NCBI GenBank assembly: GCA_947472615.1
Contig: CANJEY010000004.1
Span: 1-33,760 of the forward strand
Direction: 5' to 3'
DNA from: Beijerinckiaceae bacterium
GTDB taxonomy: Bacteria; Pseudomonadota; Alphaproteobacteria; Rhizobiales; Beijerinckiaceae
Length of the DNA stretch: 33,760 bases
Shown here: in pieces, positions 10,029 to 12,649 of the stretch
How positions within the stretch are numbered: position 1 is the stretch's first letter
How the letters are laid out: each line of letters starts with the position of its first letter
Made by a program: the position numbers and the translations under genes
The notes under the pieces: generated by a model
What the model was told of the DNA's origin: nothing
Database searches by the model: none
Seen by the model: the letters and a program-made list of their open reading frames with translations, nothing else

Positions 10029-10295
10029 ATGGCGAATACCAGTTCGGCCAAGAAGGCCGTCAGAAAGATTGCCCGTCGCACCGCCATTAACCGGTCGCGC
10101 CGCAGTGAGATGCGCACCTTCATCCGCAAGGTCGAAGAGGCCATTGCGTCCGGCAACGCCGCGCAGGCCCAGACCGCGCTTCACGACGCCGAGCCGCTCA
10201 TCATGCGCGCTGCGCAGAATGGCGTCGTTCACCGCAACACCGCCAGCCGCAAGGTGTCGCGTCTGACGAAGCGGGTGAAGTCGCTCGCGTCCTGA
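10029..10295 (+). CDS. rpsT: 30S ribosomal protein S20
   Basis: [39 protein letters not shown] ... [20 protein letters not shown]; start at MANTSSAKK. Confidence 0.98.
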
Positions 10296-10320
10296 GATCA
10301 TACGCATCGCATTTTGGAAA

Positions 10321-10346
10321 AGCCCGGCCTCGCGCCGGGCTTTTTG
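10321..10346 (+). terminator. Rho-independent terminator of rpsT
   Basis: agcccgg-cctcgcg-ccgggcttttt. Confidence 0.85.
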
Positions 10347-11101
10347 TTAGGCTGCGCATCATGGAATTCGCGCCGAAATGCCACACGGATTTCTTTTTGT
10401 CGAAGCCGGATGGCGCGCACGCAAACAGCACATAATTCAACACCTTGCGCGGCAAGCGATTCTGCCGCCCGTTGGACGCCCGCTTGACAAGCCTATTTGG
10501 CGTTCAAGCCGGCAGTGGTTTCGTATTCGAAACAGACTTGAGACCGGAAAATGAATCGGAACCTATCGCATCCGATTCAACCGCTTGCCTGCGTCAAGGC
10601 TGAATCTAATACAAAATGCGACTTGTCCGCATCGCAAGTCTGACGAGCGTGCGACACGATTGAATTGCGCCGCGAAGCGTCGAATTGTAAGGTTTTTTCG
10701 ACGGCGTTTGACCGAGCTGGATGAACGCTTCGCTGGGACTGACTGCGCGCAGCGCTGCCGAAATTCTGACCACGAAGCTCGCCATTCATACGGGTCGAAT
10801 GTTTTCGTCGCGGGGCGCGGTGCGGCGTGCGCTGATCAATTTATGTCCGAACGGACAACTGCGCTTTCGCGAAGAGGGGATGCTTATGTCTTGCATTCAT
10901 CGCGACGGAGGACTTCTTTCCTCCTTCGGCCGAACCGAATTGTTTGGATTGGCGCATTCTCTTGCAACGCTTTGTTCTATCAAGGCTGTGAGAGATTTGT
11001 CGACGTCCCGGGCCGCTGACTGACGCAGCAGCTTCGTCGTCACGGACCATACGTCCAGATCGAATGCACCCATTGGCCACGATGGAAAAAAGAGAAAAAT
11101 A

Positions 11102-12649
11102 ATGGCGTTCCAAAACGAACAAGACCAATCGATCCCCGAAGCCGTCGAGGCCGAAATTTCGGCGACGCACGACGCCGACGTTTGGACGCGCGTCATGCGC
11201 CGATTGAAGGCGGAAGTCGGCGAGCATGTTTTCAGTTCGTGGTTTGCGCGTATCGAACTCGACGGCGTGAACGGGTCGACGGCGCAATTGTCCGTCCCGA
11301 CAAAGTTTCTCAAGAGCTGGATCGACTCTCATTATCTGGATCGTCTGTCGGTGCTAATCGCGCAGGAAATTCCGCCGACTTCGCGCGTGAATGTCGTTGT
11401 GCGTTCGACGAGCCGTGTGACGCACCGATCGAATACGGCGCAGTTTCAGCAATTGCGGTCTCATCAACTGACAGGTGTGAACACATCCGGTCGCGTCGCC
11501 AATGCGCCACTCGAAAATGACAAACGGCCCGGCCCGATGCGGGTCGGCGACCTCGCGGCGCGACTGACGCCGTCGCCAGTGAAGCGTTGGGAGGCCGACG
11601 CAACTGGGCTTGTCGGGTCGCCGCTCGATCGCCGGCTGACGTTCGATAATTTTCTCGTCGGCAGGCCGAACCAGCTGGCCCATGGAGCCGGCTCGAAGAT
11701 CGCGACGGCTGATGCGCGCTCGATCCGATACAACCCTCTTTATATTCATGCGGCTGTCGGTCTCGGAAAGACCCATCTGCTGCAGGCCATCGCGCACGCG
11801 GTCGAAGCCGCAGGTAAACGGGTGATCTACCTGACCGCCGAAAAGTTCATGTACGGCTTCGTGTCTGCGCTCAAGTCGCAGACCGCGATCGCCTACAAGG
11901 AAAAGCTGCGGTCCATCGACGCCTTGATCATCGACGACATCCAGTTTCTGCAGGGCAAGCAGATCCAGCAGGAATTCTGCCACACGCTGAATGCACTCAT
12001 CGATTCCGGCCGACAGGTCGTGACCGCCGCCGACCGACCCGCGGCTGAACTCGAAAGCGTCGATGAACGCGTACGGTCGCGCCTGATGGGCGGGCTCTCT
12101 GTTGAAATGGGCTCGCTGGATGAATCGCTCCGGGCAAAGATTCTGGAAGCCCGCATCTCCAATGCGCAGATCAGTCAGCCGAATTTTCAGGTTCCGCCTG
12201 CGGTCGTCAGCTATCTGGCGCACGTGATCCAGACGAACGGGCGCGATCTCGATGGAGCCGTCAACCGTTTGCTGGCGCATTCGACCCTGACGGGAGCTCC
12301 GCTGACGGTCGAAATGGCTGAAATCGCAATCAGCGATTTGATCAGATCGCGCGAGCCGAAGCGGATCAAGATCGAAGAGATTCAGAAGCTGGTTGCGTCC
12401 CACTATAATGTGAGCCGCTCCGATCTGTTGTCAGCGCGCCGGACAGCCGCTGTCGTGCGACCGCGGCAGATCGCCATGTATCTGGCGAAGGTACTGACGC
12501 TGCGGTCCCTGCCGGAAATCGGACGCCGTTTCGGCGGTCGCGATCATACGACCGTGCTGCACGCTGTTCGCAAGATCGAGGGCCTCGCGGCCAAGGATGC
12601 GTCGCTGTCAGAAGTCATCGATCTTCTGAAGCGAATGCTGAGCGATTGA
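11102..12649 (+). CDS. dnaA: Chromosomal replication initiator protein DnaA
   Basis: Walker [17 protein letters not shown], Walker [14 protein letters not shown], DnaA signature [17 protein letters not shown]. Confidence 0.99.

Follow-up and report, generated by a model that had tools for sequence, protein, structure and literature searches.

The stretch of DNA analysed here, which we refer to as the window, comprises 33,760 nucleotides and is taken from a Rhizobiales assembly, probably a metagenome-assembled genome, that is fragmented into 500 contigs and 93% complete; the window is its contig 4. The region of interest is the gap between rpsT and dnaA, which is bounded by the following features:

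10029–10295, + strand: rpsT (ribosomal protein S20), the upstream neighbour of dnaA, a synteny shared by all 105 loci whose gap was measured
10318–10345, + strand: intrinsic terminator of rpsT, GCCCGGCctcgcGCCGGGCTTTTT, recognised from its sequence and kept in the same-genus alignment
11102–12649, + strand: dnaA, the chromosomal replication initiator

Named database relatives belong to Rhizobiales/Hyphomicrobiales, Beijerinckiaceae and Bradyrhizobium, and DnaA is 58–70% identical in the 29 species assigned to the same genus whose loci were retrieved. In every case rpsT precedes dnaA, and the gap measures roughly 0.7–1.4 kb across the 105 loci. The gap in the window and those of the 29 species form a same-genus set of 30, in the alignment of which the majority of positions are variable and only a few blocks are conserved. 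A search against Rfam gave a sole match, weak, sub-threshold and SorX-like, which spans the end of rpsT and the terminator.

An earlier note on this DNA described a cluster of four GANTC sites, the target of the methylase CcrM, within the gap, two of them in the arms of an inverted repeat, and proposed that their methylation gates dnaA transcription. All four sites are present, at 10458, 10553, 10574 and 10602, as is the repeat tgaatcgga-N10-tccgattca. The site at 10574 begins an element described below, and the others are as follows:

10458–10462, no strand assigned: GANTC site (CGATTCT) overlapping the end of element A
10552–10579, no strand assigned: 9-bp dyad TGAATCGGA-N10-TCCGATTCA, clade-specific
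10553–10557, no strand assigned: GANTC of the left dyad arm
10602–10606, no strand assigned: GANTC 28 bp downstream of the 10574 site

The window contains fewer GANTC sites than expected, 115 against 207, and in the 432 kb of the genome that was measured GANTC occurs at 2.7 per kb compared with 3.4 expected from composition. In the literature, alphaproteobacterial GANTC is reported to be under-represented overall and over-represented between genes (PMC3973325). By the density condition that the earlier note named as refuting, the cluster on its own is ordinary, as triplets of GANTC within 54 bp number 8 in 432 kb against 9.1 expected. The dyad has no second copy in the 4.33-Mb assembly; the window holds 17 inverted repeats that are perfect over 9 bp and have a spacer of 3–20, and a dyad of at least 9 bp accompanies 2 of 60 neighbouring GANTC pairs spaced 15–30 bp apart, the window's own dyad being one of the two. 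With triplets close to the number expected by chance and dyads in 2 of 60 pairs, both the cluster and the dyad are statistically unremarkable. What stands out instead is the conservation of particular GANTC sites. Three conserved elements were recognised in the gap:

10434–10459, + strand: element A, AATTCAACACCTTGCGCGGCAAG
10483–10488, + strand: element C, CTTGAC, kept in relatives at about 91 bp before element B
10574–10597, + strand: element B, GATTCA-ACCGC-TTG-CCTGC-GTCAA, a conserved composite of GANTC (10574–10578), an IHF-like WATCARNNNNTTR and GTCAA

Element B is 24 bp long, takes the form GANTCA-N5-TT(A/G)-N5-GTCAA and starts at the first base of the 10574 site. It is found in 22 of the 30 same-genus gaps, where dinucleotide shuffles predict 0.03, and never in the reversed sequence; the window's own genome holds one exact match. 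Among these 22 loci a site of the 10602 type, 27–28 bp from the 10574 site, is kept in 11, the left-arm GANTC at 10553 recurs only in L084 and L085, and the 9-bp dyad is kept in L084 alone besides the window's own species. The symmetric arrangement is therefore local to a few species, and the 10553/10574 pair is not supported as the functional unit. Conservation in relatives is deep for the 10574 site, confined to a sub-clade for 10602 and limited to one or two other species for the left arm and the dyad. The broader proposition, that a conserved GANTC lies upstream of dnaA in a genome equipped with CcrM and GcrA, is borne out. There is one CcrM in the genome, a single PF01555 match with a RAMA domain that scores 1e-155 by phmmer against the C. 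crescentus CcrM structure 6pbd, and GcrA is encoded as well (PF07750, 175 bits). IHF-beta gives a match above its family cut-off, and an IHF-alpha-like match of 103.7 bits lies below the 120-bit cut-off.

To relate these sites to transcription a promoter has to be placed, and two positions come into question:

10607–10612, + strand: TAATAC, the −10-like hexamer of the earlier note, not conserved
10665–10693, + strand: candidate dnaA promoter, −35 TTGCGC (10665–10670), N17, −10 TAAGGT (10688–10693)

The candidate promoter predicts a transcription start near 10700. Its general form, TTGC(G/A)N-N16/17-TA...., recurs in relatives from many families, often with TGTG preceding the −10, and was called in 75 of the 105 gaps compared with 12.4 expected in shuffled gaps. 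The calls were made without regard to GANTC, although the initial loci had served to develop the calling rule; a stricter rule requiring an extended TG missed Bradyrhizobium and the window, and the relaxed rule was used for the counts.

The arrangement originally envisaged was a local promoter of the GcrA/CcrM type, in which the symmetric pair at 10553/10574 and the 10602 site beside a TAATAC −10 would gate dnaA. The GANTC sites are there, TAATAC does follow directly on the 10602 site, a pairing TTGCCT-N16-TAATAC would put 10602 between −35 and −10, and both CcrM and GcrA are encoded. The partner site at 28 bp is also kept in 11 of 22 loci, and the dyad is shared with L084, which is among the nearest relatives by DnaA score. 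However, the hexamer downstream of 10602 is not conserved, the left arm and the dyad are limited to one or two other species, and the better conserved −35/−10 pair at 10665–10693 lies about 80 bp downstream of TAATAC. In the window a GANTC adjacent to a −35/−10 pair is found only with the unconserved TAATAC alternative and not with the conserved pair. The extended motif of GcrA-activated sites, YGAKTCK (PMC7987155), is matched by the 10458 site only and not by those at 10553, 10574 and 10602. On the evidence from both sides this arrangement is decidedly unlikely, and the gating of a TAATAC promoter by 10602 is not supported. A −35 at TT(A/G) in element B, paired with TAATAC, was rejected because the −10 is unconserved.

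Measured from the conserved −35, the sites at 10553, 10574 and 10602 lie at −112, −91 and −63 respectively. Of the 75 loci with a called promoter, 49 have a GANTC at 88–97 bp before the −35; after dereplication of the Rhizobiales loci it is present at −97 to −88 in 33 of 53, whereas random promoter positions give an expectation of 2.7 and a maximum of 10 in 2000 draws. Among order members retrieved later, 4 of approximately 7 loci with a promoter judged convincing by eye also have it (at −96, −95, −93 and −95). In other families the sequence at −88 to −97 reads GACTC, GAGTC, GATTC or GAATC, so only the free base changes and the methylase motif itself persists. Twenty genomes of the class belonging to different orders, C. 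crescentus not among them, did not show the −91 arrangement; they keep the rpsT-dnaA synteny and most contain GANTC. The distance from element B to the −35 falls into two classes, 66–68 or 54–57 bp, about one helical turn apart, which is compatible with element B needing one helix face.

The survey of the gaps also revealed GANTC sites in other positions. A second recurrent place lies 6–12 bp upstream of the −35 in other families and in Bradyrhizobium (L008, L009, L013, L014, L019, L020, L022, L023, L025 and L031). In Bradyrhizobium a further GANTC begins 4 bp into the −35 (GAATCAATTCCGTTGCGAGTC), so the −35 is flanked by two sites, which are close to the usual GcrA/CcrM position. The rpsT-dnaA gap of L183 (genome G084, from another order) carries eight GANTC in approximately 130 bp upstream of dnaA and is far denser than the window.

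The second component of element B resembles a binding site for IHF. The sequence WATCARNNNNTTR, which we take to be the IHF consensus as derived from E. coli, overlaps the GANTCA-N5-TT(A/G) part of the element. With at most one mismatch it is found at element B in 28 of the 30 same-genus loci compared with a background of about 2%, and the window's sequence differs from it at one position. In four loci (L090, L103, L104 and L111) the GANTC has been lost and the IHF-like and GTCAA parts are kept, showing that the protein-site-like sequence is part of what selection keeps. IHF itself is, by sequence, a candidate for the protein that would occupy element B.

These observations raise the question of whether the IHF site, or that of another protein, could be functional together with GTCAA alone and methylation be irrelevant. 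The GANTC would then be a by-product, as an IHF core AATCA with a single preceding G yields GAATC. With a tolerance of one mismatch, the consensus is indeed more widespread than GANTC (28 against 22 of 30 loci), and 6 of the 8 loci without GANTC still match it at that threshold. Against this, GATTCA in the window's species and in L083/L084 keeps the GANTC at the cost of the IHF core, and other families have GACTC, GAGTC or GATTC at this place, some of them in poor IHF matches; moreover, 33 of 53 loci have a GANTC at this distance where 2.7 are expected. We consider it unlikely that methylation is irrelevant. The loci that have lost GANTC, the loci with GATTCA and the variants of other families together make both the GANTC and the IHF-like features seem to matter.

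The overlap of the GANTC in element B with a conserved protein-site-like sequence also bears on a different relationship, in which a protein such as MucR shields the element and keeps its GANTCs hypomethylated, so that methylation would report occupancy rather than exert control. At other loci of C. crescentus and S. meliloti, bound MucR is an established cause of local hypomethylation (PMC5172544), but its motif is poorly defined (PMC7987155), and we give shielding a slim chance of being the explanation here.

Elements A and C are conserved upstream of element B at near-constant spacing. Element A begins with GANTC in 16 of the 30 same-genus loci, and that GANTC is lost in the window; element C reads CTTGACTC, with a GANTC inside, in many relatives, and the window is without it. 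The CTTGAC of element C (10483–10488) and the GTCAA of element B (10593–10597) are inverted copies of one pentamer approximately 110 bp apart, and both are conserved. Inspection of the aligned sequences found no conserved −10 after CTTGAC at 10483, and it was dismissed as a promoter −35; likewise GTCAA, the reverse complement of TTGAC, was dismissed as a leftward −35 as inspection found no TATAAT-like partner.

A long conserved gap adjoining dnaA, with IHF-like sites, could also be read as part of the chromosomal origin. The DnaA box TTATNCACA, allowing one mismatch, is absent from the gap, and the whole window contains 4 against 6.4 expected. A DnaA-dependent origin with an array of DnaA boxes was accordingly rejected for the rpsT-dnaA gap, and an origin of any kind at this position is very improbable.

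Downstream of the candidate promoter there are two further features:

10700–11101, + strand: predicted long dnaA leader of approximately 400 nt, deduced from the promoter candidate
10886–11023, + strand: short upstream ORF (45 codons), preceded by a G-rich stretch that resembles a Shine-Dalgarno

Leader ORFs of about 36–60 codons behind a G-rich Shine-Dalgarno, approximately 280–330 nt before dnaA, are present in many relatives (L008, L009, L013, L014, L016, L019, L020, L022, L023, L025, L026, L028, L029, L031–L033, L036, L038, L042, L043, L057 and L065). Bradyrhizobium and close genera have a conserved hairpin before the ORF and a near-invariant CGAGTACGCGCTGACCTCGCGA over its stop codon. The coding signal of the ORF is weak, with 206/202/280 changes at the three codon positions, which makes it likely that this part of the leader is an RNA or translation-control element. 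In L060, L066, L072 and L074 (Roseibium, Afifella and Aurantimonas/Jiella-type) the rpsT-dnaA gap has, directly before dnaA, an ORF similar to the final part of a rhodanese domain (FFLCRSGxRS...).

Several of these properties have counterparts in better studied species. In C. crescentus dnaA likewise lies downstream of rpsT, has GANTC in its upstream region and has a long leader, there of 155 nt (PMC4489657), and CcrM methylation is reported to alter dnaA transcription and promoter activity (PMC3973325). The window differs in that about 91 bp separate its conserved GANTC from the −35 downstream, and in that this site sits inside an IHF-like/GTCAA element. The promoters regulated by GcrA and CcrM (ctrA P1, mipZ and ftsZ) resemble it in having a GANTC before a cell-cycle gene in a genome encoding GcrA and CcrM. 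Their activated sites are near the −35/−10 and tend to YGAKTCK (PMC4287350, PMC7987155), whereas the window's conserved site sits well upstream and departs from that motif. At C. crescentus cell-cycle promoters the GANTC sites studied lie no more than 50 bp from the start (PMC4287350), whereas the 10574 GANTC would be near −126 from the predicted start. A GANTC far from the promoter core and clustered sites unlike YGAKTCK speak against a standard GcrA promoter.

S. meliloti shares the rpsT-dnaA gap, the long leader and a short leader ORF (PMC4414408, PMC2245857). Its long dnaA 5′-UTR (transcript sra10) is a target of the sRNA EcpR1, through which control is post-transcriptional (PMC4414408), and the gap gives rise to a 383-nt transcript with an ORF (PMC2245857). 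These descriptions concern post-transcriptional control and, as far as covered here, do not mention a GANTC/IHF-like element upstream. According to Brilli et al., the dnaA upstream regions of these bacteria have no CtrA sites, and CtrA and dnaA may be linked by different regulators (PMC2877005). In the literature covered, neither the fixed −91 site nor an overlap of IHF and CcrM sites at dnaA was found described, and because that coverage is partial the missing description is weak evidence of novelty.

The reading we prefer, with a probability of roughly 55%, is that the DNA upstream of dnaA holds a conserved control region through which transcription could plausibly be coupled to CcrM methylation. 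The positions and conservation of the elements and the encoded machinery are observed; that proteins bind here, that methylation matters and which way it acts are inferred, as follows. Transcription of dnaA would proceed from TTGCGC-N17-TAAGGT (10665–10693), starting near 10700. Approximately 91 bp upstream of the −35, element B would combine a CcrM site, an IHF-like bending sequence and a GTCAA box in one unit, with boxes of similar style farther upstream in elements A (at 10434) and C (at 10483). IHF or a similar bending protein may bind element B on a fixed helix face, and the bend would bring an upstream factor to the promoter, either GcrA, a factor reading GTCAA/CTTGAC, or both. The embedded GANTC would be fully methylated before passage of the replication fork and hemimethylated after it, and its CcrM methylation state could tune the assembly of the proteins and so the transcription of dnaA.

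A more specific form of this proposal, which we hold as tentative and somewhat doubtful, is that dnaA of the Rhizobiales is under an order-specific module in which a helically phased CcrM site lies inside an IHF bending site, and methylation alters bending or looping rather than acting through GcrA at the core promoter.

For the window itself, methylation control of dnaA is plausible, and the fixed GANTC distance across much of the order suggests that methylation may help to time dnaA expression. Counts of GANTC or searches for dyads in a single genome are insufficient for such a question, as only comparison reveals which site matters. The conserved GTCAA/CTTGAC boxes point to a second factor that would read them. 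A GANTC held at a fixed distance across families of the Rhizobiales offers a small, mutable target with which the coupling between replication initiation and methylation may be approached.
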